Notes: generated by a model not told the origin, from the sequence alone. A stretch of 64,000 nucleotides of DNA from Slackia sp. ZJ119 (GCF_011039175.1 NZ_JAAKEN010000008.1:62001-126000), one strand, 5' to 3'; positions 9,001 through 57,028 are shown, numbered from the stretch's first letter. Made by a program: numbers and translations.

Positions 9001-12000
9001 GTGGTGGGGGAGAACTTCCAAACTGCCAAGAAGATCCTGAACACCGGCAACGCTGATTACAACGCCATGGAGTCAGGAGACTACAAGCTGCGCGTCGGCC
9101 GCGTGACGTTCATGTCGCAAGCGGAATACCGTAAGCTGCATCCTGATGATCCCTTGCCCCAAGAGGGCACCGTCGTCGAGCAGCTGCCCGCTGCCGGCAC
9201 CGCCGAAGCACCGGTCCTGAAGTTCCAGGGCGCCGCCGTGAACCTGACGCTGCTCGGCACCATCGACAAGGCCGCGCAGTACGGCATCGACATGGAGCCT
9301 GCCGTGGCCAAGGAAGACCCGATCGACTTCTACGACGAGTCGAAGGTCGAGCCGACCGGCATCGATGCAGACACAGACAAAAAGAAGAAGGTCAGGCCTG
9401 CTGCCAGCGCTGAAAAGCCGACGACGTATGTGAACCAGGGCGAGAGCCACTTCACCATCGATGAGGGCGAACACAAGGGCACCCCTGTCACAACCCAGTA
9501 CGTGGGCGTGAACCGCTACGCTTCGGCCGAAGAGGTGAAGGAGGACCTCAGCCGCTTGTGGCAGCTGGCAAAAGACGCCGAGGGCCAGATTCCCGCCGAA
9601 CCGCACCAGGTGCCGACGTTGGAGATCGGCGCACTGGACCCGAGCAACATCGAGTACAACTGGATGCAGTACCTGCCCTCCATCATGCAGGTGCGCACGG
9701 AAACGAACGGCGGCAAGCCGCTGAGCGAGGAAAAGCTCGTCGAGGAGCTTCTGAAGGTCCACCGCATCCAGCTGGACGAGACAGAGCTGCTGACAGAGAT
9801 GCAGAAGAACGGCTTTAACGAATCCGCCATTGATCAGAACGATGACCATTACAAGAACGCGATCAAGAAGCTTTCCGTCTACCAGTACAAGGGCAACAAC
9901 ACGCTCATGTCCAAGGCGGAAAAGGACGCCGAAGAGCAGTGGCGCGTCGACTGGCTGGCGTTCGCGCGCAAGTACGCCGACAAGCTGGGCTTTGCCTATT
10001 ACGACGAAATGGGCGAGATCGTCGTGCCTGCCGGAAACGGCGAAGACGACGAGAACAGCCCCTATGCCCAGCCGTACGTGAGAAACGTGCTGTTGCTCAG
10101 CAGCGTGAACAGCAACGACCCGTACAGCATCTACGGCGAGCTGCAGGCATGCGTGACAGGCGGCTATGCGAGCTCTGTCGTTGCGGGCGTGACGCCGCTG
10201 AACATCACGGATACCATGACCGACGCCGAAAAGAAGGCGGAGCAAGACAGGTATCAAAAGGCGCTGGACGAAGCGCTGAAAGACCAGCATCAGTTCGTGC
10301 TGGTGGACGTGGCCAACCTGAAGATCAAGGGAACGTCGGCGCTGTCCCATGACGAGTTCCCCGGCTATACCGACATCTACAACGAACTGAAGCGCCGCCG
10401 CCAGGCCCTCGTCGACGTCTACGTCGACCGCATGGTGCTGTACTCGGCTCTGAACGACGACTTCACCAGCTACACGGCTGACGAAAAGAACTATCAGCGC
10501 GAGGTGGCCAAGCTCGAAGCCGCCGAGGACTACGGCGCGAACAAGCTGCAGCTGCCCGGCTCGGATACCATCTACGACCTGGGCGACGCGTCGCGCCTGT
10601 ACAACTGGGACGCCGGCCTGGTGGCCGTGCCGCGCTCCGTCATCAGCGGGCGCATTTGGGACGACGGCTACTACGCCAAGGACGTGCGCAGCCGCGTGAC
10701 GGCCGACCCGGACGCGAAGACCGCCGACGGCCGCCTCGTTTCCACCCTCACCGACGACGAAGTGCGCGACCTGGCCTACAACGGCCTGCAGGACGGCCAC
10801 GAGCTGGGCATCGCCAACCAGACGGTGTACCTGACGCAGTGGTACTACCTGCCGGTGTACAAGGGCATGACCGGCACGAACACGGGCGAAGGGTCCGGCG
10901 AGACCGGCGCCGCCCAGACGCTGCTGAAGGACACTGATACGTTCAAGGCGCTTGCGGACGACAAGAAGCTCGAAGAGCTCGTCAATGAGGCCGGCCTGAA
11001 GGTGCTCGGCGTGAACGTGCAGGAAGACGGCGTTGCCTCTCTGCCGGCAGGCACCCGACTGCTGCGTGCGGAGGACGTGGAAAGGTCTGCCCACGACGAC
11101 GGCCTGTGGGTGCGCAACATCGCCTTCGGGTCCGACGCGCAGACCGGCAGCTGGACCATCTTGGAAGAGAGCGATCTGGACCAGTACGGCGTGAAGTTCA
11201 ACGAAAGCGTACCTGATACTAATACCGAACCTGGCGACGCCGCTCCGTCCCAGAAGACTCCCAAGACCATTGACGGCACGAATCTGGTCGAGAACACGAC
11301 CGGCGCCACCATCAGCTACGAAGACGACGAATACCGCGTGCTGAACGGCCCGCGCTCCGAAGACAGCTGGACGGTCGGCAACATCGGCCTTGACAACAAG
11401 CTCATCGCCGGCTTCGACACGAAGGGCAAGCTCGTCGATGTGGACAAGGTTGCGGTTAGGGAGTGGACCGAGATCCTGAATAGCGATCCTTGCCTGGTCA
11501 AGGACACCGAGGGACATCTGATCGTCGGCGAAGACGGCATCGTCAAGACCGCCGACGGCTCCATCGTGCGCCAGGTGACCGAAGGCGCTGGCGCGAAGCT
11601 TGAGAAGCTCGTTTTGCCGCAGCTCAAGACCGGCGTCATCGCCGTGAAGACCGGCGACCTGGCAAAGACCGCCGTCACCGACAAGACCACGGGCAGAACC
11701 GTGTTCGACTACGACACCGACAAGCTTGGCAAGTACGAGTTCTCCGGCCTGCCGAGCGCCTACACCGACGTCAACGGCGCCCACTACCTGGCGTCGTACC
11801 GGGTGGAGCTGGCCGACTTCTACAGCACCAGCACCGACGACAGCACCGTCGTGGAAGACGAAGAATGGCTGCTGTCGCCCTATCATATGGCCGCCGACGG
11901 CCTGTTGAAGAACCCCAAGGAGAAGGTGGCCGCTCTGCGTCGCGCCGACTCCGACCACGTGGGCAACGGGCATGAGGGACATGCGGGATACGCCGTCACC

Positions 12001-15000
12001 GCGCAAGACACCGTGCTGACCGTGGGCAACAACCTGGTCACGGGCAAGCGTGCGCATTCCGGCCACATCATCGTGGCCGGCATGACCACCGGCGAAAAGG
12101 GCGTTGCCGGCCTGGACGAGACCGGCGTGGGCATCCAGCAGTCCAAGGTGGCCGTGTCCATCGACGACGTCCTCGACCTGACGGGCTGCGCAGAGCCGAC
12201 CCTGACGCAGGAAGAGATCGACGCCAAGAACCAGGCCGACCAGGACCGCACGAACAAGATCAACGCCATCAAGAATCTCGAAGGCAAGAAATACACGCCA
12301 GAGCAGGCCACCTCGCTGTACAACGACGCCATCGCCAACATGGTGCTCGGCGGCAGCGGGCTGACCTACGAACAAGCGCTTGACCAGGCCATCGCCGAAT
12401 ACGAGGCCGAACAGGCAGCCGTCCGGCGTGCGGCCGAACACAAGGCGATGGTCAATGAGCTCATGACTGGCTCCGAGAAGCTTGACGAGGACCAGGCGGT
12501 CGAGAGAGCTGATGACTACTTCGCCATGCAGGACTTCCTTGCCGCTTGGTCGCAGGAAAAAGGGCACGAGAACGCGACTAAAGAGCAGAAAGAGGCCGCC
12601 TGGAAGGCGCACGAGGCCGAAAAGAAGGCCGCGAAGAAGGCCCGCATCGACGAGCTGGCCAAGCAGATCATGCGCGACGAGAAGCTGTTCAAGGACGCTG
12701 CCGAAGAAGCGGCGACGCTCCAGATCGAGCGCGAGGAACGCGAAGCCGCCAAGGCCGAAAGGCTTGCCGCGAAGCATGCCCGCGAGGCGGCGGCAGAACG
12801 GCGTGCGGCCCGCGACTACGCCGCCGCTCAGGCCGAGAAGCGCAGCGCCGAGAAAGTGACGCAAAGCCACGTCGTGTTCGACTACCTGTCGGCGCGGTAC
12901 GTGTCCACCATCAAGGAAACCACTGACGTGCTCGGCAACGAGTACCTGGAGCTTGATCCGGTCTATGAGTCGGACGAAGCCATGGAATACGACGAGCGCA
13001 CGCGCATCGTCGATGGCGGTTCTGTTGGCGAACTTGCTCCTCCGAAGCAATCTATCTCCGGCGTGGCGTGGGACGACGCGGCCGACGGCCAGAACGACGG
13101 CATCTACACCCGCGTGCGCGACGACGAGGGCGAGCTGGTCGCCGTGGCCGGCCTGCCGAACGTGCAGCTGACGCTGGAGCGCTATTACCGCCCGGTCGAC
13201 CCCGTTACGGACCGCCCGGTCGAAACCGGCCCCGACGCCGGCAAAGACGCCAAGTCCGGCAGCACCGCGCCTGCCGGCCCCGGTGCGCCTTCCGCCGACG
13301 AAGGCTGGATCCGCGACGACGGATGGGCGCTGGCCCAGTCCGCCGACGCCTATGCCCTCGATCCGACGCTGGGCTTGGAAGGCAACGACACCTACGGCGC
13401 GACCAGCATCGACGCTGAGAGCGGCTCGTATCTGCCCGACCTGGGCAAGACGATGGCTGCCCCCGGCTCTGTCAAGGAAGCGCCCGAAGGCTACGATCCC
13501 GAGCTGCATGCGGCGGTCGAGCAATCCCTCGCCTCGCTGCAAAGCGAGCTGATCGCGACCGACGCCAAGCTGACCGCTGCCAAGAACGACCCGTCGTCGA
13601 AGCAGACCTACATCGACTCGCTGAAGCGCGACGTGAACGACCTGTACGCACGCATCCGCATCGTCGGCGAACAGCTTGACGAGCTGGACGATCAAAAGCC
13701 GCCCGTGGATGAAGTGCCGCTCACCATCGACGAGCGCATCCACAAGCTGCTGATCGAGTTGACGATAGACTACTACGAGGAAAAGCACGGCATCACCGTC
13801 AAGCACCAAGAGGCCGAAGGATCCGAGCCCGAGAAGCTCGTGAACCAGGCCAACAACGAGACGGTCGAGCTGCTCAGCGTGACCGAGGCTCTGGCGTATT
13901 TGAACGCCACCCTGGTGGACAAGCGCGAAGAGTTGCCCGAAGCCGCGAAGGAAGAGGCCGCGCACGTCCAGTGGATCAAGGATCTGAAGAAGGCTCTGGG
14001 CGTCATCACGAAGGACGCGGCAGACGACATGGTCGCCTGGCAGACGGCGGAAGACAAGCTGTCGGCGCTGAACGAGGCCGCGGAGAACATTGCGTCTGTC
14101 AAGGAGGCGTTGGACGGCAAGCCCGGCGGCGCACAGGGCAAGCGCGCCGACCTGGCGGACGAGGTTGCAAGCCAGGGTGAATACAGCTCCGCGGCCATCA
14201 GGCTGAAGGCAGAGATCGCCGGTCTGGAAGCCCAGCTGGCGGCCTATCAGAAGACCATAGCCAACACCGATCGGAAGACCGAAGAGGACAGGCGCGACGA
14301 GGCGGCAGGGAACATCGCCGAGAAGCTCAACGTAGCGCTGACAAACGAGATGACCGACGCGCTGCGCACGCTGTACAACAAGCTCACCGCGTCGGTAGAA
14401 ACCGAACTGGACGAACTCAAAGAACTGGAGATCCAGCTGTCCGATGCGCAGAAGCATCTGGAAGAGCTGCAAGCCGACCCGCAGAGCGTCATTGGCAGTG
14501 CGGACCTGCACGAGGCCGCCGTCACGCGTGCCGAGGAGCGGGTGGATCAGCTGCAAGGAGAGGTGAACAGCAAGAACAAGGAAATCGAGAGCACGCTGCG
14601 CACCGAGCTCGTGAAGGGCAGCGGCGTCGACGAGTTCGAACCCGAAGGCGACTTCAACTTGGCCTACTACCTGAAGGGCATCCTCGAGCCCGCTGACCCA
14701 AGCAAGCCCGCTCCCAACGCTGCCGCAGTGAAGGAAAAGCTTGATTGGTACATCGGCAACGCCCAGAAGCGCACGTTCGCCGACGACAGCTCGGCGACGT
14801 CCATCGAGGCTGAAATCGCCGAACTGGAGGACAAACAGTCGCTGCTGCTGAAGGTGTCGCACAACACGTTCACCGACGAAAACGGCGTCTACCACTTCGA
14901 GAACCTGCAAAGCCAGGGCTGGCTGCCGCTCGACGCCAATGGCAAGGTGGCGATCGATGAAGAGACCGGCAAGGTCGACGAGAACGCCCGGCGCACGTTC

Positions 15001-18000
15001 GTCGTCTTCTCGTACCGCGTGCGCGTCACCGACAGCGACTGGTGGAACCGGTATTGGGGCACGGCGAAGTACCTGCAAGGGGAAAGCTACGACGTGGAGT
15101 CCAGGGACTACCGGAAGGATTCCGACCTGATCAACGACACGGGCTATCTGATGAGCGACGAAGGCGACGCCGGCGAATACACCGTGCTGCTCGACGTTGC
15201 CGCCACGCCCGAAGAGCTGCAGAAGCAGTCGGAGAACATAGCGCCCTACACTGCGGCCTTGACCGCGTGGCAGGCCAAGATGGAAAAGGTCGAAGAGCTT
15301 GAAGCCGGCATCGCGAACGCCGAGAAGAGCATAGCCGACGCCGAGAAGCTTTTGCCGGCGAAGCAAGAAGACTTGGCTCAGGCGCGAGAACTGCGGGACG
15401 GCGTCCAAGACGAGCTGAACAAGACGCTGGCAAACGACCCGAAGCGCCCGTCGGTCGAAGCCGACCTGGCCAAGGCGCAATCGGCCGTGACCGCGCTGGA
15501 AGACGAGATTGCGGATCTCAACAACGCCATCAGCACGAATGAGGCGAGCCTGGCGTCGCTGCGCCCGCGCTATTCGGCCGCGGCTGCCGAAGCCGAACAG
15601 CTGTGGAAGGACGTGGAGGCGACGTCGCAGGGCAAGACCGACCTGATCAAGGCCGTGGAAGGCTTGAAGAAGCTGACCGTGCCGCACAACAAGCGCACGA
15701 CGCTGAACCCGGACAACTACAACGTGAACGGCGCCGACCGCTACACCCGCGAACCGCTGCCGAGCGTGTACACCGAAAAGGCGGTGGCCGTTGCTCCGCC
15801 GATGCTTCTTGGTGCGGCTGGCACGAACGCCTTGGTGCCGAACCTGCTGACGACGGATCCGCCCGCCGACCCGCCTGCTGGCGGCTCGACCGGCGACGAA
15901 CAGACGGCCGTCGGCTACCAGACCAACCTCGACTACGACCTGGCCCGCGGCGCCGACCGCACGTCCAACGACGCCGGCCTGATGACGCCTGCGGCCCAGA
16001 CCATCGCCGGCGTGGTGTTCAACGACCACGACTACGACGGCCTGCTCGACGAGGACAAGGGCGTCGATCCGCGCCTGGGCGGCAAGCGGGTGCTGCTGAA
16101 GCAGTGGTACTATGTGCCGCTTGACTTCTCGAAGAAGACTGATACTGGTACCAATAACGTATCTAATACTGTTATCGGCAAGTCTGGCAGCGACCCAGTC
16201 AAGCCGAGCCTCGAATACATCCAAGACCTGGCGCCCTACCTGCCCGCAGGCGTCAGCCTGAACGGCTACACGCTGGGCCGCGACGCCATGCTCACCGAAG
16301 ACGGCAATGCCGTGTGGGTCCAGAACAAGAACTTCGGCAACGACGCCTACACCGTGGCCAAGTACAACGAGAAGAACGGCTCGAGCGGCAACCAGCGGCA
16401 GAACGACCGCACGTTCGTCATTCCCGAGTCGTACTACGACGCGGCTGCCGGCGCGGTCGCCCTGCTCACGCCGAACACCATCACCACGACTTCCCAACAG
16501 ACGGTCAACGGCAAGAAGGAAACGGTCACGACAGTCAAAGACGACCCGCGCAAGGGCGAGTACTCCTTCGACAACCTGCCGACCCGCTACGTCCGCGCCT
16601 ACGTGCCCGGCACGGCGGCGACGGCGGCCGAGGGAGACAATCCGGCCACTCCGGCGACGCAGCCTTTGATCGCTGCCGAATACCTGGCCGGCTACACGGT
16701 CGAGGTGAAGGGCGGCACCGATGGCGACGCCATCCACGGCCTGCCCGCGTCGCCCGTGCAGGTGGACACGACCGACAAGGACCGCGACAGCTCCAAGGCC
16801 ATCAGCGCCCTGCGGGCTTCCGGCAACACGACGGAGAACTTCGCCGACTACGTCGACGGCAACTACCCGGTGCGCTGGAACGAGCTGACCACGCAAAACG
16901 TGAAGACCGAAACCATCGACCTTGGCCAGGACGAGACGCCCGAAGGCGAAGGCGAGAAGACCGAGCAGGGCGACGTCAACCTGCAGTCCGAGACCGGCGG
17001 CGCCGGCGAAGGCCAGACCGGCACCGAAGGCGGCACCGAGGGCGGCGCTGACGATGAAGCCGACCAGGTGACCATTACCACGGTGACGAAGGCCACCCTC
17101 GACGGCAAGATCATCCTGGCGGGCCTGGGCACGGAGGAATCCGGCGACGCCACGCTGGCGGCTGCCGGCACCGACGCGACAGCCGACGCGTTGCAAGCCA
17201 GCGAAGAAGCTGAAGACCAGAAAGCGGCGCAGCGGCTCCGCTTCAAGGCGCACGGCACGTCGCCGTGGTTCTACCAGCGCCAGACGCGCACCCCGGCCGC
17301 CGAAAACACGCCGGTCGCCCTGGACAACGCCACGGGCCTGGTGCCTCGCGACATCGAGGCCGCGACCGAAGCGAACGCCGCCAAGGATCAGACCGTCTTC
17401 TTCGACTGGTCGATCGGCCGCAACGAGACGCGCATGAACGCCGGCTTCGCCGAATACGGCTTGGCCAAGGTGACCGGCAAGGTGTGGGAAGACGGCAACT
17501 TCGACGGCATCTTGAACCCGGGCGAGAAGGTCATCGACAAGACGTGGCTGACCATCACGCAGTGGTTCTTCGTGCCGGCCGACGAGAAGGACGTCATCGC
17601 CGCTTTGCGCGCCGACGACCGCTTCGAGATGGACGACCACTTCGAGAAGGTCCAAAACGACGCCGGCGAGACGCTCACCGGCGTGTGGGCGCATGCGATC
17701 AACGCCGAAATCGACCAGGACGCGACGGTGAGTGCGGACGCGACGAAAGAGGGCTACCAGGGTTGGAAGCTGAAGAGCAACCCGGTGTCCACGTTCCTGC
17801 GCCAGAACAAGAAGCCCAACAGCGAAACGGGCATCTACGAGTTCAAGAACCTGCCGAGCTACGTGTACCTGTTGACGCGCACCGAGGGCGCCGAAGAGGA
17901 CCAGGTCACGAAGATCGGGGCCAATGCGAACAGCTTGGCGGTCCTGCAGCCCAACGACGAGCCTGAAGCCATGGTGAACCTGGCGACGAAGACCATGGGC

Positions 18001-21000
18001 GTTGCCAGCGACACGGCGACCGGGACGTACCAGCCCAAGCAGGCCGACGCCGCCGCCATCGACCACATTTACATGACGGGCTACCGCATCGAAATGGAGC
18101 AGGTCATGCCGCAGTACGGCCTGACGTCGGCCCATATCGGCGTGAACCTGGACAAGAAGTTCACGGCAGAGCAGGGCGAGGCCATCGTGGTCGACACGGC
18201 CGGCGACGCGCTGCCCGAAGACGCAGACTCCGACGCCGTGGTCGAGAAGACCACTGCGACGGTGTATGTGGACACGCTGGGCGACGAGTACACGAAGAAG
18301 ACGGTGTACGTTGTTGGCACAGGCGACAGCGAGACCGAGGTGGAGAACCCGACGCCGGTGCGCGTGTTCACGAAGAAGGCAGAAGGCGATGCGGGGACTG
18401 ATACGAAGTACTGGAAAGCTACCAAGTACTTTAATGCCAGCGACGTGGCATACGACGAAGCTGCCGAAGGCCGCACCGCCGAGCAGGTCTACGTGTCCAA
18501 CGAGACCACCAACAACATCTACCGTCCCGAGACGCGCTACGCCGATGCGAAGGGCGTCGAGTACCAGAAGCGGACGGTGTACGAGAACGCTGACGGCGAC
18601 CGCGTGGAAGCTTCCGCCGAAGGCGCCACGGCAAAGACCGTCTACGTCGCCACCGACGACACCGGCAAGGAATACCGCGGCAAGCCCAAAGACCTGAAGA
18701 CCAAGACCGTGTACGTGAACGGCGGCAAGGTGTTCTGGCCGCTCGACCCCTCGCTCGAAAGCGAGACGGTCTACCGCGATGCGAACGGCACCGACTGCAC
18801 GCCGAAGGCCGTGTACGTCCGCGTCGATGACGAGGCCATCCGCTACAACGGCGACACAGATGATCTGCGCGAAGAGACGGCGGTCACCAGCTCGAAGATA
18901 GCGCTGACCGAGGAGTTCTTCGATGACACCTTCACCGTGAAGGACGGCAAGCCGACCATCACCCACGACGACCGCCTGACCAAGAACAACCACAAGTGGC
19001 GCATGGACGGCTACGTCATCGTGGCCAAGCAGGGCGACGACGACCGCGACGGCAAGCGCAACAACGACTACCAGTACAACCAGGACTACAACAAGATCAA
19101 GTACGACTATGCCTGCCCGGTGAACGTGCAGCGCGGCGGCGAAGCAGGCCTGCTGAACATCCCGCGCGGCTCGCTGCAAGGCGACGTGTGGGACGACACC
19201 GGCAAGCGCGTGTGGAAAGAAGAGAAGGAAGAGCACGCGTTTGACGACGCGTTCGAATACGACTACTCGACCGGCTACAACGGCTCGTTCGACGCAGGCG
19301 AGGCCGGCATTCCGAACCAGGTCGTATACGTGACGCAGTGGTACTGGGTGCCTGGGCGCACCGAACAGCAGGGCGACGAGCCCGTGCCCGGCCAGTGGGT
19401 CCGCAACACCTCGTTCGGCTCTGATTTGTACACGTCGAACTTGGCCAACGTGAACTACGACGTGAGCCAGACCGTGCCCTACGTCTTCGACCTCAACCGC
19501 GAGATCGAAGAGAAGGACGATCCGTTCGCAGCCATGCGCTTTGCCAGCAACAGCAATCCCAACAAGCTGCTCGACTACGCCGACAAGGGTGCGGGCGTGC
19601 TGCAGGTGCTCACGAACGACAAGGGCAACTACCATGTGGGCAACCTGCCGACCTTGTACATCGCCGACGACGGCACGTTCCACCTGGCCGCCTACCGCGT
19701 CGAGCTGGCCGACCTGTACAGCCAGTCCGAGGCCAACGAGGTCGACGGCACGGACAACACGTGGGAGCTCACGCGCTACCACCACACCACCGGCGACGTG
19801 ACCGCCAAGGTGGGAGCCGAGATGGCCAAGCTGGACGATCCTGACAACGCAGAGGGCGCCAAGAGGAAGAACGAGGTCATCGAGGCCTACATCGCCCAGC
19901 AGGTGCAGGCAAAGATCCTGGAGAAGAAAGAGCACGATCTGCCGGCGATCATCGAGGCGTATCGCGACGTCGTGAAGACCGATGCCATGACGGCGGGCGC
20001 CACGGTCACGTTCGACGACCACTCGACGTGGACCATCCCGCTTGACAAGCTGCTGTCCAACGACGACTGGCGCAACCTGCGAAGCGACAACAAGCTGACG
20101 AAGAACATCGTTGAACTGGGCAACCTCTACGAGAAGCACCTGGAAGAGACCAAGGGCGACGAGTTCTATAAGAGTATCAAGTTCGCAAATGGTATCGATG
20201 GCGCCACCAAGGAAGCCACCGTTACGGCGGCGCTTGCGGCCGAGCGGGAGAGGCTCACGCGCGAGTACCAGAAGAACTCTGCCAAGGTCAGCATCGACAA
20301 CGAGTCCGCGTCGATCATCGACGACTCCGACGTGGCCACCGCCGTGCGCACGGCCAAGGCCGAGGGCGCGGGCGGCTACGCCATCGCCAGCCGCGTGGGC
20401 AACGACACGGTGGGCATGGCCTCCGACGGCACGAACGCCGACAGCGTTGAGACCACGCGCACCACGCGTTCCAACAACGGCCAGGTCATCTTGGCCCAGC
20501 CGGTGCGCCAGGGCACGTATACCTACGAAACGGCCAATACGCTTTCGCGCACCATCGAAGAGTACCTGGTGGACGAAGAGACCGGCCGCTGGGAGTTCGA
20601 CGAAAGCATCGTAGGGGAAGACAGGCGCAGGCACGAGCCGGTCGTCTACAACTACGAGTACATCAAGACGGCGAAGACGAACGGCGACGTGGTCACGGGC
20701 GAGGTCGTGGAGAACGTCAACGGCAAAGACGAGACCAAGCGCGTGAACGTGAAGGCCAACGAGGGCGCGATGGTCGAGCTGCCGGCCGGCCAGGGCATGG
20801 GCACAGGCGTGGAGACCTACGACTTCATGGCCGCCCAGCTTGACGCGGCCGAGGCGGGCGACGTGGGCGAGGTGAACCAGCCCACGCAGTCCATCAGCGG
20901 TTACGCCTGGTTCGACTACGACAACGACGGCAAGTACGGCCAAACCAAGCCCGTGCAGGCCACCGATGCCAACGGCAAGCCCGTGTTCGACAACGGCCAG

Positions 21001-24000
21001 CCGGTCTACGAAACGCTGAAGGACGCCGGCGGCGACGTGCTGCGCGACGCCAACGGCGAGGCAGTGTACAAGACCGAAAAGGCCGATCCGCTCGAGAAGG
21101 CCGCCGAAAACATCGAAGTGGTGCTGGAACGCTACTACCAGGTGGCGCTGCAGGCCGCAGACGGCACCTACGTGGCGGCCGAAAAGCAGACCGACGGCAC
21201 CTACAAGGCGTCGGAGAGTCCGGGCGAGGTCGACTGGACGCGCGACGAGGACTGGGCCGACAACTGGGCCGAGTACGACGCCGACCCGACCATGGGCCTG
21301 AGGAAGTACAAGCTTGACGAGTTCGGCAAGCGGATCCCGGTGCTGAACGACAAGAATGAGCAGGTGGCGGACGAGCTGGGCAACCCGGTCTACGAAGTGG
21401 TGCCCGGCCGCCAGACTGCGACGGACGAGAACGGCACCTTCGTCTTCGAGAACCTGCCGAGCCACAACGTGCAAGACGCCGTCATCGAATACATGGACAA
21501 GGACGGCAACCTGTACGACCGCACCGTGACCATCACGAAGAGCGAGCCGGAAAACGCGAACGAAAAGCCCAAGCCGGTCGTCACGGTCACGTTCAAGAAG
21601 AACGACAAGGAGGCCGTCAGCCACAGCGGACTGGACAAGGAAAGCATCTACGTGAACGCCGCAGGCGTCCAGCTGGAAGGCGACGCGCTGAAGCTGGCGC
21701 TTGAAGTCGAAAATCGGGATCAGAACGACCCGTTGAAGAAGGTCACCGAGATCTTCCAGGTGACGCAGCCCATCATCAAGCTGTACGGCTATCGGGCCCG
21801 CGTCGTGAACGAGGACGTGCACGACCATGCCGTGGGCGTGGCGAAGTACCTGCAGGGCGACGACTACACGCGCGATTCCGACCTCATCTACGAAAACGGC
21901 TATCTGATGGCGCCCAAGCAATACGACGTGCTGCTGAACGTCGTCACCGAGGAAAGCCCCTCGTCGAACCACCTGGCGGCGCCCACGTCGGCCAACATGA
22001 ACAACAACACGGCCGACCGCTACGCCGTGGCGCGTTTCGGCACGGACGAGCAGAAGACCCTGCGTGACGCCGCGATCGCGGCCGCCGAGCAGGCCGTGGC
22101 CGCCGCGAAGGCGGATCGCGACGCAGCGAAGACCGCATACGAAGCGGTGAAGGACGATGCGAGCAAGACCACTGCTGAGATCGGTGCGGCGAAGACGACG
22201 CTGGACGCGGCCGAAGACGCTGTGGTCGCGAAGCTGACCGCCCTTGCTGTTGCCGAGGCGGCCGGTCCCGACTTGCCGCTGCAGGTGATGGACGAGCAGG
22301 TGACTAGGGACAACAAGTCCAAGTTCGTGAGGACGAGCATGTCGGAGATCGTCAACGTGGACGGCCGTGCCACCGCGCAGCTGGTGGATGGAGTGTTCTC
22401 CAATATGGAAGGAACGCCGGTTGGTACCGACGTCGCCGTCTACGACCTGGGCAGCGGTGCCGACCGCGCGTCGAACGACGCCGGCCTGCTGCCGCCTCCC
22501 GAGGCGAAGATCGAAGGCATCGTGTTCAACGATTCCAACTACGACGGCCTGGTGACGAAGACCGAGACTGCGACGGAGACGAAGAAGGCCGATGACTTTA
22601 CAGCCGAAGAACACAACGAAGATGGCAGCGTGCGCGTAGGCGAAACGACCGAAGAGGTTGACGACTACACCACGATCAAGAAGAACGTGGTGCACAACCC
22701 GGCCGTTCCTGCGTCCGAAGGCGTCGAGGCGAAGGAAGAGTCCTACACCGTCACCACCACGACCACCACGCTGGAAGAAGGCTACGCCGGCAAGAGCGTG
22801 TACCTGAAGCAGTGGTACTACGTGCCGGCCGATCCGAACTTCGAATTTGACACAGAAGACGAGATCATGCCGATTGCCGAAGGCGAGACGCAGAAGGGCC
22901 ACACCACGCTGGCCGAGGCGCTCGACGCCCTTGAAACGTCGAACGAAACGATCTGCCAAGACAAACTGAAAGACATCGAAGGCGATACAAACAAGTCTGT
23001 CACGCAAAAGAAGGCCGCCAGCGCTGCGGCGCTGGCGGAGCGCGACGAGGCTCTCGCTAACGGCTACAAGAACCTGTACGCCAAGGCCACTGGCATCGAC
23101 CTCGCGGGATACACGTGGGGCGAAGAGGTCATGCTCGCCAGCAGCGGCAACGGGCTGTGGGTGCAGAACAAGACGTTCGGCAACGACAAGTACACGCATG
23201 CCAAGCATGCTCGCGACTCGGTAGACGCCTGCAAGGATCACAACCTGTACGCGTCCGAGATCTTCGGCTACGGCGCCTCGGCGCTGGCTGACGGCCGCGT
23301 GCGCGTCACCACGACCGACGGCACCGTCGAGACGACCGACGGCGTCGCCGCCGCCCCGAAGGGCCACTACCGCTTCGGCATGCTGCCGACCCGTTACGTG
23401 AAGCCGCGCGAAACCAAGCCGATCTACTTCGACCTGGACGGCAACACGATCACTGCCGAGAAAGCCGAAGAGCTGAAGAATGCGGGCAAGCGGGACGAAT
23501 ACCGCGTCTGCCGCAAGACGACCAAGTCCGCCGCCGAATACCTGGCCGGCTACACGGTGGAGATCGAGGGCCATGCCGATACGGACGTCACGTCCATGAA
23601 CGGCATGCCGGCCACGCGCCTGCAGGTGGACGCAGCAGGCCGGGAGACCAACGAGCCGAGCACGGTCGACCAGTTCAATTCCACGGCTGCGAGCGCCTAC
23701 CAGAACACCCGCCCCGTCTACACCGACGGCGACTATCCGGTGCGCTGGAACGAGTTCACCGTGCAGGAGCACTACCAGGTGAAGCTTGAGACCTCAAAGA
23801 CCGTCAAGAACGAAAAGGGCGAAGACGAAACCGTCACCGTGCCGGCCGTGTTCGCCGACAAGGCCACGCTCGACGGCCGCATCATCCTGGCTTCGAAGAC
23901 CGTCGCGGATCCCAGCAAGTACGAAGGCAACACGCCCGCGCACTACATCGTGAACGCCACCGGCAAGAAGCTGGAAGACGAAACCGACACCAATGCAGTC

Positions 24001-39000: not shown

Positions 39001-42000
39001 CTGACTGCCGACGAGGAGCAGACGAAGACCGGCATCGCCGATCGCTACCGCAACCTGGCGACCGTCGAGCGCTTCGAAGCCAAGCAGAGCGACGTTGACA
39101 CGAGCAAGAGCAAGAAGACTGCTGGCACCGATGATGTTGGCAACGCCACGCAGGTGGCCAGCGAGCTTGCCGGCATCGACACCTACGACTGGACCGCCAA
39201 GCCGCGCGGCATCGTCGTGGACGAAAAGCCGACCGGGACGTTCGAAGGCGGCGACGTGGGCGAGACCAGGCCTGCCCGCACGACCATTTCCGGCTACGTG
39301 TGGAACGACGACCCGTACCGCGACGGCTTCTACAACCTGTCCGACGAAAAGGACGTCGACGACCACTACAACCTCGATCCTGACACCGACCAGCCGCTCA
39401 AGCGCGACATCAAGAAGGAAGCGGGCTACTACGTCAAAGGCGAGGAAAACGAGATCGTCGTGAAGGTGCTGCTGCGCCAGTGGTACTTCGTGCCCAAGGA
39501 CGATCCGGCCTTTGACGGCTTGACAGCGAAGAAGGCGGACCCGACGTACACAGGCCAGATCGAATGGATCACGACCAGCGGCGAGCCGGCTGCCGACGCG
39601 ACCGACTCCAATGTCACCGGCGCCTGGGTGCGGGTGAACGACTTCGGCGCGAGCAGCAAGGACCCGGCCACCGACAACGCCCGCGGCAATGATGGCGAGA
39701 ACAACTACGTCAGAGAGCCGTACTACCGCGTGACGTATTCTCGCCGCGGCGACGCAGGCCCGGACGCCTATGGCAATCCGGTGCAAGACGGCTTCTACGA
39801 GTTCCGCAACCTGCCGGTGAGCGTACACGCCAAAAACGGCCGCGAATACCTGGCCGGCTACACCGTGTCGGTGCTTGGCAACGACGGCCTTGCCGTCACG
39901 CGCATCCAAAGCGACGAAGACGACACCATCGACCCGAACCTGGTGGAGTGGGATGCGACCGAGAAACGCTACAAGGTCAACGAGGGCAACCAGGGCGAGG
40001 GCAAGCTGTTCCGCGACCTGGACGACTGGAACTCCAACGCGCGATCCATCGGGACGCAGGGCACGGCGAAGTATTCCAGCCGCAACTTCCCGCTGATCTG
40101 GACGAAGCGTTACTCCGACGACGGCGAGAAGCACGTGCTCGACGGCATGATCGTGCTGGCCGGCGAGGCGAGCCCGGGCCAGTACAGCGTCGGGACGCAC
40201 TACACCGAAACGGTGCAGGTGCCCACCGCCGACGGCATTGGCATGGAAAACAAGGTGACGAGCAACCGCGTGAAGTTCGACCTGTCCTACGCCAAGCGCG
40301 AATACCGCTTGAACGCCGGCTTCACCGAGCCTCCTGCGGCGCCCATCACCGGCATCGTGTGGAACGACAAGAACTACAACGGCCTGCGCGACGAAGGCGA
40401 AGAGGGCGTCCCGAACGTCGGCGTGAAGGTGTACAAGTACTATTGGGGCCCGACCGTGGTCGAGCTGAACCCCGACGGCTCCATTAAGAGCGAAAGCAAC
40501 TTCCAGTGGATCGCTGCGGACAGGGAACTGGCAGAGACGTTCACGTCCAACGGCTATGCCACCACGCTTGCCCCCGGCGGCGACCTTACCGCGAAGCCGC
40601 AGCTCACCTATGACGAGAAGAAGGTCGGCGTCTACACCACCCAGAAGCTGCCGACGAGCTATCCCGACGAGTACGGCGTCGAGCGCTTGGCCGGCTACCG
40701 CGTGGTGCTCGAGGATTGGGGCAACCATGCGATGCCTGCCGGCGCCACGCTGTCGAAGGTGCACGTTGGCGACATCTACAACTACGGCGACAGCCACAAG
40801 CACTACAACCAAGAAACCTTCACGGATGTGGAATCCGACGCCTACCGCTCGATGAAGGCCGGAACCGATACGACCGTGTATCCGCTGGTCAACCGCTTCT
40901 TTGAAACGGTGCCCGGCGAAACGGAGAACGTGGAGGTCACCCGCGCCGACGGCATGGTCATCACGGCGCACAAGTTTGATGAAAAAGACGAGGCGACGAC
41001 CGAGGAAGGCAAGAAGAAGGAATACGAAGGCGTCGTCTATGACATCAGCCAGGGTTCTGTGGAGACGGTCTTTGGCGGCGACGCCGGCCTGGTGTTCATC
41101 CCCGAAGCGCCGCTCGAGGGCGTCGTGTGGGACGACGGCTTCGTGGCCCCGGCCGACGAGTTCGACGAAGGCGCCATGGCCGCCGCGACCGACAAGGCCT
41201 ACAACGGCATCCGCGACACTGGCGAGGCCGGCCTGCCCGGACGCATGCTGCTGCTGACGCAGTGGCGCTACGTCCCGGCGCATGACGAGCCGGTCGAGGC
41301 TGCGGCCGAAGACGCCGAGCCGATGACGCGGCACGTGGAAGCCGCTTGGCAGCAGATGACCGACTTCGGCAGCGCTATGGCGGAGGGCCAGTGGACCTAC
41401 ACCCCGGCGAAGGACGGTGCGGAGGCCACATGGAAGCACGACGCCACGGGCGACGAGCTGAGCTATCGCGACCTGCGGGCCCTCTATGCGGCCCAGAGCG
41501 CGAGCGCCCATACGCCGTATTCGCTCAAGGGGCTTGCGGGCCATCTGTTCGTGGACGAGGCGCTGCAAAAGGCCGAGGCATGGCAGCAGAACGAAAACGC
41601 CGTCCTGGCCGCCGAAGCCGCCGTGCTGGCTGAAACGCTGAAGGCCGTGCGAGACGCCCAGAGCAGCGAGGACAAGGCGTTCAGCGTCGAGAAGGCGCAA
41701 AGCGCCGCCGTCAAGAAGCTGGACGAGAAGATCAAGGGGTTGGAAGAGGAAGTCAAGAAAGCCGACGGCACCGACACCACCCAAGCCATCGTCGACGCCA
41801 GAACTGCCGTCACCGACGCCATGGTGAAGGCAGGAGAGGCCGAAGATGCCTTCGACGATGCGCAAACGGCCGCTGTTTCGGCTGCCGCAAACGTCGAGGC
41901 CGCCAAGCAGGCCAAGGCCAAGGCGGAAGCCGAACTCGAGGCTTCCAAGGAAGCGCAGAAGGCCGGCGATGACGTCCTCGGGTCCGCCGAAGCGGTTGCA

Positions 42001-45000
42001 GCCGCTCAGACGGCGCTTGACGCTGCTGTCGATGCGCTGACGAGCGCCAATAAAGAGAAGACCGATGCAGATGCGGAGCTGAACGACAAGGAGAAGGCAG
42101 CGTCTGACGCCGCGGCCAAGCAAGGCGAGGCCGAGAACGCGCTGCGAGAGCTTGAAGAGGCGTTCGACAAGAACACGGCCGAGCTGGCTGCCGCCGTCAA
42201 CGTCAAGGCCGCGCTGGATTACCGCATCGCCGCGGCGAAGATCGCGGCCGGCGACGCGGCGACGCTGCCGGATCTCGGCAACGACAAGGCGAGGGAGCTG
42301 GTGCTTTCGCTTGGCGCCATTGACGATTTCGCGCAGAAGATCGCCGAGATGACGGTCACCGGCGACGTGGCGAAGAGAAACGCCGTGAAGGCCGCCAAGT
42401 CCTGGCTCGACGCTTTGGACGCCAAGCTGGTCGCCGACAAAGAAGCGGCTGACGGCACGTCGCTGACCGACCAGGAGCAGAAGAAGGCGTTCCTGGCCGC
42501 CCACAACTACTACGGCGATCTGGACGACCTGCGGAATCACCTGACGGCCACGCTTGGCTTCACCGATGCCGAGGCCGACTACGCCGTCGAGACTGCCGTC
42601 AAGGTGACGACCGACGAATCGAACAACAACCCGGTGGGCAAGCGCCGCGCCGTGTGGATCGATCAGACGACCGTCAATCCGACCATGGGCACCCATGCGG
42701 CGGGCAACGGCGTGGTGTACACCTACACCGCCGACGCCTACACCGCCTACAGCCTGAAGGCCGACGACGCCGGCTGGGCGTGGACGAAGGACGTTTCGCG
42801 CGAGGGCCGCTACGCCTTCGACAAGGTGCCGAGCGCCGTGTCCTACGCGGTGGACGGCGCCGAAAACGGAGACGCGACCGACGAGCGCTTCGAGGGCGCC
42901 CTGGGCACGGACCTCGCGGCCATCTACACCGTGGAGAAGAGCGCTGACGGCAAACCGACCTATACGCAGGCAGCCTTCCCGCAGCTGAGCAACGACGAAT
43001 ACGCCCTGGCCGCCTACCAGCTTGAGCTGGCCGGCCTGGAAGAGGGCTTCAACGACGGCGAGCTTGCCGTCACGCGCTACCACGCGCAGAAGAAGGAGCT
43101 GGTCAGGCCTGCAGGCACGGCCGGCACCGGTGCGCTGACCGGCCAGACCGAGGCCGCCGAGCCGACCTACCGGTTCGTGAACGCCTTTGGCGAGGATTCC
43201 GACGTGGCGACCGGCGAGCACACGGGCATGCTGCAGGGCATGGTCGTGAGCGACCAGACCGCCGCCGATCCGTCGAAGAAGAAGGTCCAGACCACGGTCG
43301 GCGAAGGCGATGCGGCGCAGACCGTCGAAACGATAGAAGAGCAGACGTTTGAAAGCACGCGGGCCAAGTCGGTCGACGGCCAGACGACGCCTCAGGCCGA
43401 CGGAGCCGCCCAGGCCATTGAAAACGGCGCCCGCATCATCGTTGCGAGCGAGGCGAACGTCGAGCCGAAGCAGCAAAAGCCCGAGCAGGATCAGCCGACG
43501 GACAAGCCGGCAGAAAACGTCCAGACGCTTGCCGCCGATGCCGACGGCACCGGCAATGCCGGCGCCGATGCAGGCACGGCGGGTGCGAAATACACGAACC
43601 TGGCGAACGAGAGCGACTGCATCGACGTGAACCTCGACCAGGTGCTTGACGACGAGTACGTGGCCGCCAGCGACCTGGCCGACCGCTTCGTCAGCTACGA
43701 CTGGCTGACGGTCGATTCCGAGACCGCGTCGCTTCCGGTGCGCCGGCCCGTCTTCGTGAAAGAGGGCGGCAAGCCGACCAACGTCGTTTCCGTCGACGCC
43801 AATGGCGACTACGAATTCGAAGAGGGGTCCAAGGACGCCGAGGTGCCGGTTGCGGTCAACGGCGGCGACGCCGGCGTGGTGCGGGCGAAGCGCCAGAAGA
43901 TCGAAGGCGTGCTGTGGGACGACAAGAACAACAACGGCCTGCAAGATCCCAAGGAGCTCGGCCGCAACGGCTACAAGGTGGCGCTCGAGCGCTACTACTA
44001 CGACCCGGTCGCCAACGAATGGAAGCTTGACAAGAGCTTCACGAACACGACCGAGACCACGACCAATCAGGCAACGGGCACGACTGCGACGACGTTCACG
44101 ACCAAGCACGCGCACGTGGCCGAGACCGCCTATCTGCAGGTGGCCAACGATTCCGGCCAGAAGTTCCGCTCCTACGAGGCGCTTGAGAAGGGCGCGGCGG
44201 GCGACGTCGACCTGAAGGTCTATCGCAACGCGAACACGAACAAGGTCTACCAGAACGGCATGTACCGCTTCACCGAGCTGGAGGGCGCCGGCCAGATCGA
44301 CATGAACCAGGTGCGCTACGAGGCCTATCTGCAGGCGAAGGCTGCCTATGACGCTGCCGTGGCGGCTGGCAAGGCCGAAGGCCTCACTGAGCCGGCTGCG
44401 GTTGCCAAGCCTGCTGCCGACGCCAAACCCGACATGCAGTGGGTCGTTTACGGCTACAAGGTGAAGGTCATCGACGAGCGCGTGACCTCGGGCGAGAAGC
44501 TGAAGTCCAAGTACCGCGTGCGCGGCGCGTCCGGCACGTTCAAGAACGATTCCGACCTGGGCGAGCTCGACTCCGCCCAGAGCGAGATCGACCCCGGCTG
44601 CTATCTGACCGGCGAAGACGAGTACATCGTCTTGCTCGACCAGGTGACGGTTGACGGCAAGACGCCCGACGGGCGGACGTCCAACCCGTCGAACATCCTG
44701 TTCGCTCCGCCGTCGAACAACGACGACCAGACGGCGCTTTACGAAGACCCGCGTGCGGGCGTTCCGGCGACGAGCGCCGAGGGAGGCACGACCGAAACGA
44801 CCGAAACGACCGATCCGGCCGATTCTGGCGACACGACCGAAACGACCGATCCGGCTGAGCCCGGCGGCGAGGGCGAAGGCGACGGCGGCGAGCCTGCCGA
44901 AACGCCTGCTCCCGCAGAGCCGATGACGAAGCCGGCCGCCGCCGGCACCGGCGACAATGCTGCGACCGAGACGCTCGTGGCCTACGACCTGGCCTGCTCG

Positions 45001-48000
45001 AGCGACCGCAAGCATTCCGACGCCGGCATCATCGATCTGCCGACATACAAGATCGACGGCTATGTGTGGGAGGACTTCGACTACAACGGCCTGTACGACG
45101 ACAAGGCGCGCTACACCTACGATTTCGTCCGCGACTACCAGGGCGAGTTCGTGAAGTGCGACAAGGACGGCAACTACGAATACTACGAGTCCGAGGAAAG
45201 CACCGAGCCGGTCACTGGCAAGGCTGAAAAGCCCGTCGCCGGCGAGGTGGACGAGCAAAGCGCCGAGTTCGTCATGAACGGCGGCAACGACTACTTGATG
45301 AAGCGTTCGTACACCCACGAGGACGGCTACAACGGCAAGCAGGTCGTGCTGAAGAAGTGGTACTACGATCCGGAGGCGACGCACTTCGAGCCGGTCATGG
45401 AGACGGTGCCGATCGAAGGCAAGCAGGTCGAGAGAGTGAAGCACGACAACGGCAAGATCGTGTACGAGCAGGTCAAGGGCACGTGGCTGCTTTGGGACAA
45501 CGAATACGTCCCGGCGCACAAGGCGACGGAGAGCCAAGAATGGGTCGAGGGCAAATGGACCGTTCCGGCTGCCGCGAACCCGGCCAAGGACGACTTCGCC
45601 AAGAAGCCCATGCTTGACGAGACGGCGGTGGGCGCCTTTGCGACGAAGACCGGTGCCCAGGGCGAAGAGGAGACCGTCTTCAAGCCGTACGATCCGAACG
45701 ATCCGAACGATGCGGAAGCCCTGAGCAATCGCGTCGAGATCGGCAAGGACGGCGAGGGCAACTCGGTCTACGGCTACGCCGGCGAGATGAACCGCATCAC
45801 GGAAGTGCCGGCTGCGTCGGTGGACGACACGCTCACGCACACCTACGACGACCCGTCGAAGTGCGCCGTGCAGCCCATCGTCGAGAAGGACGGCATCGAA
45901 TCGCTCAAGCACGAAGGTGCTTGCGAGGCCGACAAGGAAGGCTATTACAAGTTCGACAACCTGCCGACCGCCTACGCCAAGATCGACGACAACGGCCAGT
46001 ACCACTACTACCTGGCCGGCTACACCGTGGAAGTGAACGGCGACAACGACGAAGACGGCATGATCTCGCTGCTGACGACCACCTACGAGTGGCAGACCAC
46101 CGGCGAGGACGAGCGCAACTCCAACGCCGAGCCCATGGTCATCGAAGAGGACCATGTCATCGACGAGGACTTCACGAATGACGAGTACCTGTTCGGCGAC
46201 TACGGCGAGGGCAACTACCCGGTGCATCTGGGCAAAGACGACGTGCAGACCGGCACCGCGCTCGACGTGGACCCGGCCTCGATGAACCCGGTCGAGAACG
46301 CGGGCATTTCGAAGAACGCGATGGAAGGCAAGATCGTGCTGGCCGGCGTGGCGGAATACGAGATGGTTGCGGGCGGCACTGTCGAGAAGCCGACCGTCGA
46401 GCGCGACCGCATGCTCACGAACGGCGCGTACTACCAAGCGTCCAAGCCGTACGACAAGGAGGTCGTCAAAGAGGTCACCATAAACGGCAAGACGGAAAAG
46501 AAGACGGTCTTGCAGCCCGGCAACCAGAGCGAGTTCGACTTCGCCATCGGCCAAGACCAGCGCTTCATCAACGCCGGCTTCACGCCTCCGGACAGCGCAC
46601 TGCTCAAGGGCTATGTGTGGGAGGATCGCGACGGCGACGGCGTCATGGCCGAAGACGCCCACAAGGCTGCAACCGACGACTTGGAGAACAAGACCATAAA
46701 CGACGGCGACGACCCGCTCGGAAACGTCATCGTGTCGCTGGCGCAGTACTACTTCGTGCCTGAATACGACGCCGACGGCCACCAGCTGGTCGAGGACGCC
46801 GACGGCAACATCTTCTACTGGGAGCCCGACGCGAACGACTCTTCCAAGCAGCACCTGCGCCTGTCGGTGGCGGCCATGGGCAATCGCCACACGAAGAACA
46901 TCGTCATCGGCAACAACAACAACATCTACTACATCAGCGGCGGCCGCGCCTACCTCTACGAAGAGGACGACGTCCGCGTGAAAGCCCTGCACAACTCCGG
47001 CACGTGGGTGCTCAACGAAAGCTTCGACGGCGTGAACATGACCGCCGGCGCCGAAGGCGAGCCGAAGACCGTGTCGCAGTTCGGCATCGCGTTCTCCAAC
47101 ACGCCGGACGAGCAGAAGGAAGACCTGCTGATCGCGTGGATCAACGGCAAGGCGACCGTGGTCGAAGGCGACGTCACAGACGCCGACGGCAGCACGAACA
47201 AGAGGCTGGTGCTCGTTGACATCGCCGATACGGCCAAGTACGAGAAGCGCTCGCGCGAAGAGCTGCTGGCGCTGTGGTTCGCGCCCGACGGCTCGGACGC
47301 GTTTGCGGCCCGCAACTTCATCTTCGGCGTGGAGCAGATCAACGAGAGCGCCGAGGAAGGCGAGGACGGCAGCAAGCCGACGATCATCGTGGGTGCGCAC
47401 AAGGTCGCAGAAGACGCGCTTGCCGCGGCCATCGACCTCGACCTGATCGACTGGATCGACAGCGACGACTTCACGGCTGAAGCGCTGACGACCGACAGCA
47501 TGGGCCGGGCGCACGACTACATCTACGGCGTCAAGACGACGACCGTCGATGCAGAAGGCAACGAGGTCGTCGAGACCGTCGGCGGCGACAAGACGCTGGC
47601 TGCGCTTGCGAATGCGAAGCTTGGCATTGCCAGCGGCGACGAAGGTGCTGGCGATGGTGAAGGCACCGGCGCGGGTGAAGGTGGAAATATCGAAACCGAA
47701 CCTGGTACTGGAAACGACCAGCAGACCGACCCGGGCGAGGCCGGCGACGGCGACGAGACGCTGACCCCGGCCATCTCCAGGATGATGTCGCACCGCTTCA
47801 TGGCGCTGGCAGACGTGCCTGCGCTGCTTGCCGACGACGGCGCGGCCGGCGGCTCGAACACCCCGGGCGCCGTGACCGCTCCGACCGGCGGCGAGACTGC
47901 TCCGGGCGGCACGACCGACCCGAGCGGTACGGGCAACGGGCAGACCGACGCTGCGCTTGCTGACGAGCCGGACACCGTGCGGACCGAAGTGACGCGCCAG

Positions 48001-51000
48001 CCTTACGAGACCTGGGTGCAGACCACGGCCGACGGCGCCTATCGCTACCGCGACCTGCCGGCATACATCCTGCTGGACAACGACGAGGACAGCCCGGCCG
48101 ATCCGAGCAAGGACAGCATCTACCAGCCGCAGAGCGGAGTGTCGTTCGAAAAGGCGCAAGAGCAGACCTTCGACAACGCCACGCCGTATCTGGCCGGCTA
48201 CGTGATCCACGTCATCAACGCGCACAACTCCGAATACGTGGCCACGAAGTACAGCCCGCAGAAAGACCCGAACAAAGAAGAGATCACCAACGACCTGCAG
48301 GTCTACGTCGACAAGTCGCACAACGTGCTGCAAGGCAACATCAACGGCAGTTCCGCGAGCGAGACCGTGGCCGTGGTGGCGACCGACAACGACCACGACA
48401 AGGAAGCTTCCGACCGCTACCAGGTGGAATACAAGCTGAAGAACTACGACCTGGCCAACCGCCTCGTGCTCAAGCACGCCGGCAACGCAGGCCTCACGCT
48501 GCGTGCTCCGGTGCTCATCTCCGGCCGCATCTGGGACGACCTGGACGCCGACGGCATCGAAGACGACGGCGAGCCCGGCATCGAAGGCGCACTCGTGAAG
48601 CTGACGCGCTACTGGTTCGACGTGGAAGGCGTCGGCGTGTTCGAAGAGCGTGCCGACAGCATCAGCGACGAGGTGAAGCAGGAGCTGACCGACATCGTCA
48701 ACACGCCTGCCGGCAGGGCGGCTGAGGAAGCGGACGACTTCTCGAGGTTCTACGAGCCGCTGCGCAAATGGATCGCCGACCGCGCCGACGTTGCCGCAGA
48801 CACCACGGACGAGCAGATCGAGCAGAACTACTGGGCCCTGTACGCGCTGCAGAACGCGCCGGCCGACAGCGAGTTCGTGAACCTGAAGAAATACATCTAC
48901 GGCTACACCTATACGAAGGACGACGAGACCGTGTTCGTGCCGCCGCAAGACCAGCTGGGCGCGAACGGCGGCCTGCCGCTTGGCCAGGAAAGCCTGCGCC
49001 TGCTGCTTGACGACGCCGTCGAGAAGCTGGCTTCCAAGCTGAACCTCGAGATCACCGAGGGCGACCGGAACGTGTGGCGCAAGGACAAGACGTTCAACCA
49101 GGCCGACGTGTACACGCTGTCCGAGGTCAAGGCGGACGACAACGAGGCGCTGGCAGACTCCACGCTTTCGGTCGACGAGATGTACGACGCATCCGACAAC
49201 TCGTTCGACCTGGGCGACTGGATCGACGTCATCGAGACGGGCGAGGACGGAGAAGTGTTCGTCGAGGGCGCGGCCTTCGCCGACTCCATCTCGTCGGGCG
49301 ACTGGTGCTTCGTCGTCAGCGGCGTGGGCACCCATGAAGTGGCCGGCATCAGCCCGAACGTGCTGTACGGCTACCAGGCCGAGGTCGTGTCCTATCCGGC
49401 GTCGCCCACCAAGGAGCGGCTGGAGTCGATCGATCGCGGTTCGCACGACTATGACTACTACGACGAGGCGTTCTACGTGCCGTCCGTGCAGCACGCCGAC
49501 TCGCGCACGACCGCGCAGCTGACCGATGCGGCAAGCACGGCCAAGAACGAATACGACCTGGTCAATTCGGACCTGAACGTCAATCCCGAGACCGGCCGCT
49601 TCATCGTTGCCGAGGACGCCGGCACCAAGCGCACGGGCGAGGCCGCGCCGTTCGCGCCCAACGACATCGACGTGGTCTTCGATGCGCCGACCGGCGACAA
49701 GACTCCGGTGCTCGACGACGAGAAGAGCATGGGAGACTTGCTGGATCCGGACCTGATCACGCTTGCGAACCTGGTGGGCACCGGCGACGCGGACTTCTTC
49801 GTGGCCGGCCCGTACGCCAAGATCGTCGACGTGAACGGCAAACGCAAGGCCGCCGGCCTGGACGCCAGCATCAACGAAGGCCAGTATGGCGGCGGCGACC
49901 CGGAGAACGTCGGCGGCGGCACCGGCGCGACCGACGCGTCCGGCGACGACGCTGGCAGCGGCACGACCGACGAGTCCGGCGACAACGCCGGCACGACCGA
50001 CGACGAGGCCGACACGCCGACGCCGGCGGCCGAGACCTACGACTTGGCCGGCGACGAGGGCGACGACGAAGGCACGACCGGCGACAACGCTGGCGGCGAC
50101 GCCGGCACGACCGGAGGCGAGGGCGACGAGACCGAGGCGTCTGCGGCGTCCGAGACGCTGGCGTCCGACATGGCGTTGTTCTCGACGCTCAGCACCTTCT
50201 CGCTGCTGAGCGACGTGGCGGGCGACACCGCAGAGGGCGAGATCGCAACGACGTTCAGCGAGCCTAGGGCCGCGACGTGGACCGGCACGACGCTGGCAGA
50301 GTTGAACCGCTTCATCGTCGCCTCGCGCAACCAGGCCGACAAGGAAGCGGCCGTGAAGAAGTGGATCGCTTCGGTGACCGCGAAGGCCGAGCTTGAAAAG
50401 ATCAAGAACGGCCAGGGCGCCGCGCACGACTTCGTGTACGGCACCGGCGGCACCGGCGGCGTCGACGAGCTGCAAGCGGCTGTGGACCAGCGGCTGGAGC
50501 TCTTCGACAAGCCCGAGTCCAACGAGCTGAAGGCGGCTGCGGCCACGTTCGCCACGCTTGGCGAGGACGAGAAGCGCACGTTCGTGACGGCCTTCATCGA
50601 CGACGCCACCCTGCGCGACCTGTACTACCTGCAGAACGCTCCGGTCGCGGCCGACTGCTACGAGATGCGGCAGTTCATCGAGCACGACAAGCCTGCCACC
50701 GGCACCGAGTCGCTCAAGGCGTATCTGGAATACATCATTCTGCGCGGCGAAAGCCACGGCACCGTGAGCAAGGAACTGATCACCTTCAAAGACGACGGCT
50801 CCTTTGTGATCAACAAGGACTACCTGGAGAACGAAGCCACGCGCGAAGACCTGGAGACGCTGGCCACCACGGTCAAGTACGCCAGCGTGATCTTCGGCGG
50901 CGTGCAAGGCTACGAGCGCGAGGCGTCCACGGGCAACGTGGTGCCGGTGTACGACCGCAAGAAGGCTGACCCGATTTTGGCTCCGGCCTACGAGGCCCGC

Positions 51001-56807: not shown

Positions 56808-57028
56808 GATCTCTCCAATCGTCCTGTGGCTGGGCAAAGAGGTGCGCACTCTTCTCGGGAGGCGCCGATCCGTTTCGCCGGCCCTGTTCAGACGGCTTTC
56901 GTTGGCGTTTCCCTGGCGGCTTCAATTCTGCGTGCCTGTCGGCTTGAATCCAATTGACGCGGCTGTCAAGATGTCACACAATGTGACAATATTGATACGG
57001 TGTCATATTCTGCTCGGAAGAAGGTGCC
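56808..57028. promoter_or_regulatory. Divergent promoter region of oxidoreductase and TetR genes
   Basis: These 221 bases separate two divergently transcribed genes and must hold both promoters. For the TetR gene, ttgacg (56954-56959) with 17-base spacing to cacaat (56977-56982), or gtgaca (56983-56988) to tattct (57006-57011), are possible -35/-10 pairs. No equally good pair was found for the minus strand. The operator palindrome overlaps both candidates. Confidence 0.5.
56972..56988. promoter_or_regulatory. Palindromic operator tgtcaca-caa-tgtgaca
   Basis: The 7-bp arms tgtcaca and tgtgaca surround a 3-base centre, 41 bases before the TetR start codon. Size, symmetry and place fit a TetR-family operator that would control both the regulator and the divergent oxidoreductase. 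A further half-site, tgtcat, is at 57001. Confidence 0.65.

Follow-up and report, generated by a model that had tools for sequence, protein, structure and literature searches.

The giant surface protein encoded in the 64,000-nucleotide stretch of Slackia sp. ZJ119 DNA analysed here (the window) carries 23 SdrD-B-like modules of four types (A to D) at positions 10630-48504, in the order ABCD four times, A-CD once and ABCD once more. This typed array is the wall-proximal stalk of an LPXTG protein of an Eggerthellaceae gut bacterium. Taken as a whole, the stalk is probably built from ancient ABCD blocks whose order has since been frozen.

Modules were placed by their heads, which follow the pattern [I/V]xGxVWxD...DG..., and the measured bounds agree with those originally predicted (10640-48507, residues 3544-16168 of the window translation). 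All blocks lie on the plus strand. Block 1 (10630-19161) comprises A1 (10630-13041), B1 (13042-15990), C1 (15991-17457) and D1 (17458-19161), and is followed by block 2 (19162-25341) with A2 (19162-20880), B2 (20881-22497), C2 (22498-24069) and D2 (24070-25341). Block 3 (25342-31635) holds A3 (25342-26829), B3 (26830-27933), C3 (27934-30111) and D3 (30112-31635), and block 4 (31636-37059) holds A4 (31636-32757), B4 (32758-34119), C4 (34120-35625) and D4 (35626-37059). Block 5 (37060-41100) lacks a B module and reads A5 (37060-39273), C5 (39274-40332) and D5 (40333-41100), while block 6 (41101-48504) is again complete, with A6 (41101-43887), B6 (43888-45039), C6 (45040-46590) and D6 (46591-48504). 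The sixfold recurrence of A-B-C-D in the original prediction thus holds for five blocks, and its block size of about 5-8 kb fits the complete blocks (5.4-8.5 kb) but not the three-module block (4.0 kb). Three untyped SdrD-B-like modules precede the array (5686-8139, plus strand; window residues 1904, 2191 and 2422), the third of which is also present in other giants, and three untyped modules, E (48505-51090), F (from 51091) and X (from about 51745), follow it on the same strand as far as 52296. Counted with the 23 typed modules, these make up the predicted total of about 29.

The types had been predicted to carry distinct head and tail motifs. Such motifs mark some copies, but TQWYYLP has only two occurrences, in one A and one D module, and typing by literal head and tail motifs was dropped as the motifs are too degenerate. 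Because they mark only some copies, typing needs the whole module. Labels in the window's protein were assigned by hand, initially with the order in view, and the types were therefore tested by other means.

The protein is far larger than the window displays, which corrects the original picture. Its open reading frame spans 34,856 residues (104.6 kb), from an ATG at C39:10182 to a stop at 114752 of genome G000, so that it starts 52 kb upstream of the window, and the second half of the frame occupies window positions 1-52752 (plus strand). It ends in a C-terminal anchor (52606-52752, plus strand) consisting of the sortase signal LPQTSD, a membrane segment and the positively charged tail RRRRDEEDEG before the stop. 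A sortase (PF04203, 88.7 bits) is present in the genome; no sortase gene was found on the giant's own contig. The in-window part contains 9.6% D, 8.1% E, 8.5% T, 4.9% S, 5.0% N, 5.9% K, 3.8% R and 0.18% C; its lysine content is not especially low. Two more giants are encoded in the same genome, C12 (30,463 residues) and C2 (22,174 residues).

Several features of the surroundings were also recorded. Upstream of the window, 5' of the 34,856-residue frame, a tract of 13 G (G000:C39:10143-10155; L004:8143-8155) parts the giant's frame from a 476-residue ORF in a different frame (contig 8744-10174) that contains a conserved signal-peptide region. In the paralogue C12 this signal region and the giant share one reading frame. 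The frame break at the tract likely reflects either phase variation or a homopolymer or sequencing error. Another poly-G tract, some 20 kb upstream of the giant of C2 type, varies in length between two genomes at homologous sites, with 10 G here (G000:C2, about position 67; L024) and 13 G in genome G136 (G136:C1, near 1,395,400; L041). Downstream of the giant are a molybdopterin oxidoreductase and a VWA-domain protein (54117-56849, minus strand, and 61073-61885, plus strand), followed by AAA/helicase genes. Pfam and NCBIfam searches of whole stretches returned only SdrD_B-related and weak coiled-coil (SMC-like) matches, and neither the Rfam search nor the plasmid comparison gave a match.

The modules resemble the B domains of staphylococcal adhesins in fold. 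The SdrD_B profile (PF17210, cut-off 29.7) matched an early module (window residues 2421-2456, 43.7 bits) and the C-terminal stretch (32.0 bits), but the typed modules tested from the window and the C2 paralogue reached only 24-27 bits, below the cut-off. An ABCD block from the C2 paralogue, modelled with AlphaFold at moderate confidence (mean pLDDT 62), had SdrD A2-A3-B1-B2 as its top PDB match in Foldseek (E 8e-7). On realignment it matched the B domain of UafA (Z 12.3, 116 residues, rmsd 2.4) and SdrD B1 (Z 10.5, 114 residues, rmsd 2.3) at 26-27% identity. The roughly 115 aligned residues are distributed across the full extent of a module, which suggests that each module may be a single B domain, prealbumin/Ig-like in fold, with large loop insertions. 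A model of C5-D5 from the window was too poor for a fold search (pLDDT 49). By sequence, the PDB yielded no significant match (SdrD at E 0.02 for D5), and the viral structure library gave no meaningful match. SpaA-type shaft pilins (CnaB/prealbumin) have a related fold (Z up to 7.9 in the structure search), but match less well than SdrD and UafA and are separate subunits joined by sortase, whereas the giant is one chain.

With the B domains of SdrD, SdrG and UafA the modules share the fold, an acidic head loop and a position in a wall-anchored stalk. Staphylococcal adhesins have few compact B domains, whereas here at least 23 diverged copies of four types stand in fixed order, each with loop insertions of roughly 100-900 residues. 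Unlike in MSCRAMMs of the Sdr/Clf type, no SD dipeptide repeat lies between the last module and LPQTSD. A Pfam scan of the N-terminal half (17,000 residues), covering all but about 7,000 of them, gave no match, and so none to the ligand-binding N2-N3 domains. In all four types the head residue D12 is 98-100% conserved and the loop glycine (G17; G29 in A) 96-100%, and types A, B and D carry a DSD motif as well as the acidic loop. The B domains of SdrG and SdrD hold three calcium ions and withstand forces above 2 nN (PMC6232131). Given these near-invariant loop residues and the calcium-bound staphylococcal domains, we propose a stalk that would be stiffened by calcium.

All-against-all blastp within the protein revealed similarity maxima at spacings of four and eight modules (mean bits of 18.5, 23, 14, 43.4 and 38.3 at lags 1, 2, 3, 4 and 8, respectively). 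Modules in the same register averaged 38.1, compared with a maximum of 33.3 over 20,000 shuffles of the order (p<5e-5). For 20 of the 23 modules the best match was of the same type, the exceptions being D5, B6 and D6, and unsupervised clustering recovered 6/6 A, 6/6 C, 4/5 B and 3/6 D modules. The prediction that the modules are not random copies and cluster by type is borne out by this period of four.

Relatives of the modules occur in 20 of 138 genomes in a family-wide search, many with open frames of 20-31 thousand residues, and in 19 of 396 in a class-wide search, all within five genera of Eggerthellaceae; carriers include Adlercreutzia caecimuris, A. equolifaciens, A. faecimuris and Parvibacter caecicola. 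An HMM for each of the four types, built from the window's protein only, was run against ten other giants (20-31 thousand residues, two of them from this genome) in four genera. The head search had fused two adjacent modules of block 5 or 6 in seven proteins, and type-specific domain matches served to split them. Nine of the ten giants showed the complete series of ABCD four times, A-CD and ABCD, including the absence of B5. The tenth, G002_b from A. equolifaciens, lacks exactly C2-D2-A3-B3; the modules that meet at the junction, B2 and C3, show no mixing in any third of their length. Among shorter relatives with LPXTG, some have a single block (G058 and, twice, G135; a second gene of A. faecimuris is one of these) and others two to three (G088, G090). 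In A. caecimuris another large LPXTG protein, of about 12.7 thousand residues (G001:C1, about 2,480,000-2,517,286; L112-L114), reads D-A-A-A-B-C-D, a duplication of single A modules and not of blocks. The loss in G002_b, the block counts of the shorter relatives and this exception together indicate that the four-module unit is the main, though not the only, unit of change. A 4,094-residue ORF in a single-contig genome (G005:C1, about 1,348,398-1,360,679; L121-L122) retains only D4 to D6 and the C-terminal end, and is apparently a broken or truncated giant.

The window's protein is the longest through insertions inside modules and not through extra modules. The conserved core of the 23 modules amounts to 4,963-5,196 residues in all full-length giants, while non-core residues range from 2,250 to 7,429, the window's protein having the most. 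Helix-forming residues abound in many of its inserts. Those in B1 and A6 (window 13567-15660 and 41371-42340) are rich in A, E, K and L and coiled-coil-like, and weak SMC matches lie at 15180-15670. In a concatenated tree the window's protein is sister to the pair C12/G136_a. Differences between orthologues fall most often on third codon positions, consistent with translation under constraint.

This constancy would also be expected of a titin-like scaffold or ruler, in which the four-module pitch and the fixed module number set the spacing or length for periodic binding of a partner, for instance another surface protein, a glycan or a cell-wall unit. Ten of the 11 giants keep the 23-module series and a constant core length while their loops vary three-fold. 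Titin A-band super-repeats, which have the same position-specific similarity, are considered to provide a template for regularly spaced binding sites (PMC10665226), and loss of two titin super-repeats shortens the thick filament (PMC5648799). The A band is the nearest analogue in principle: it too is an ordered super-repeat in a giant protein, grown by recursive block duplication, with domains that cluster by repeat position and not by neighbourhood, as the modules do here. Titin, however, is an intracellular muscle protein with unrelated Ig/FnIII domains and longer units (11 domains in the C-zone), whereas the present unit combines four variants of a single fold and sits on a bacterial surface. 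Several points speak against a ruler: it has no known partner, one homologue is short of a four-module unit, shorter paralogues have one to three blocks, and the large loop inserts would be expected to disturb strict spacing. We therefore consider a ruler unlikely; if true, it would be a bacterial counterpart of the titin super-repeat, a surface fibre maintained across genera.

We then turn to the history of the blocks. In an LG tree of 251 modules (242 core columns, FastTree local supports), modules clustered by type, with clades for A (0.994), B (0.984), C (1.0) and D without D6 (0.861). D6 falls outside its clade, D5 and B6 join the other modules of their type, and D is the loosest of the four. 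Blocks did not group (Jaccard at most 0.33) and neighbours were never together, which excludes the grouping of neighbouring modules that would have spoken against the original prediction. Each of the 23 positions formed exactly one clade across the 10 full-length giants, with support from 0.385 (C1) up to 1.0. Such clades place the duplications before the three giant paralogues of this genome separated, and before the genera did. In a joint tree the shorter relatives group with the giants by type, mostly outside the position clades of the giants, and the four types therefore predate the giants.

Between-block distances agree among types (C-D r=0.93, p=0.004; B-D r=0.94, p=0.008; all four jointly p=4.5e-4), as expected under whole-block duplication, with type A agreeing weakly with the others (r=0.38-0.50, pairwise not significant). 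In separate trees of B, C and D, blocks 1-3 are nearest each other and blocks 4, 5 and 6 are deeper. Such congruence is not expected if selection kept the members of each type alike as a functional class, and domain shuffling, not block duplication, set their order. Type-specific conserved residues outside the fold core would suit such classes, but relatives with a single ABCD block also exist, and we regard this explanation as very improbable.

Still harder to accept is recent growth of this one gene by lineage-specific block duplication, the picture given in the original prediction. The block structure and the clustering by type inside the protein fit it. Core identity, however, is 51% between modules at the same position in other proteins and 34% between modules of the same type in other blocks (23% for other types, 22% for neighbours), so that blocks are 32-34% identical where the same position across genera reaches about 50%. 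At the DNA level the best internal repeat of the ORF covers 127 bases at 79%, and all 23 positions are clades across genera, which refutes such recent growth. Growth by duplication of a four-module block is thus upheld by type clustering, congruent distances and relatives with one to three blocks, but not as growth inside the present gene: the module comparisons point to block duplication that was ancient and then frozen. An assembly or repeat-collapse artefact, conceivable in a draft genome of 40 contigs, has negligible probability, since independent assemblies, among them the single-contig genome G136, show the same architecture and giant LPXTG genes are already published for A. equolifaciens.

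We propose that the four module types diverged before the array grew, and that several rounds of whole-block duplication of A-B-C-D followed in an ancestor shared by several genera. Blocks 4, 5 and 6 would be the deeper copies, blocks 1-3 on the N-proximal side would be the youngest, and one block copy would have lost its B. Related genera, and the two or three paralogues within each genome, would then have inherited the 23-module series nearly unchanged, the loops inside modules expanding afterwards, most of all in the window's protein with its coiled-coil-like inserts. The conserved acidic loop resembles the calcium-binding loop of staphylococcal B domains, and predicted calcium binding would stiffen the modules. 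In fixed order they would form a long, mechanically strong stalk that holds the remaining 20,000 or so N-terminal residues away from the wall, and the protein may act in adhesion. Four types would make four specific junctions (A-B, B-C, C-D and D-A), so gain or loss would be best tolerated as whole four-module units. Against strict junctions stand A5-C5 in all giants and the D-A-A-A-B-C-D relative of A. caecimuris.

Giant LPXTG genes of A. equolifaciens were reported in 2013 (AEQU_0093, 74,766 nt; AEQU_1251, 74,247 nt; PMC3778203), shorter homologues occur in another subspecies (PMC8142583), and a relative lacks them (PMC4599084). They belong to the same bacterial family and size class as the present gene and share its C-terminal LPXTG. 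We compared the published loci through A. equolifaciens DFI.6.87, which has two giants with the present module family. The window's protein shares the reported traits (giant ORF, LPXTG, rich in D, E, T, S and N, poor in K, R and C), except that lysine is not notably scarce. The papers give length, composition and LPXTG but no modules or super-repeat, and the present ORF is longer. In the literature library searched, no paper linked Eggerthellaceae with 'giant protein', and papers on 'super-repeat' and bacterial adhesin domains dealt with other subjects (mucin MUC2, Lactobacillus mucus adhesion). We found no description of the super-repeat, although the giant Adlercreutzia genes are already known.

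Giant bacterial surface proteins are usually dismissed as repetitive and fast-changing. Here a family of 20-35 thousand residues keeps 23 individually recognisable stalk domains in fixed order across genera, so that each domain can be traced as an orthologue. This offers a clean case for growth of a giant repeat protein by whole blocks followed by freezing, and a testable model for the mechanical stalks of gut bacteria.
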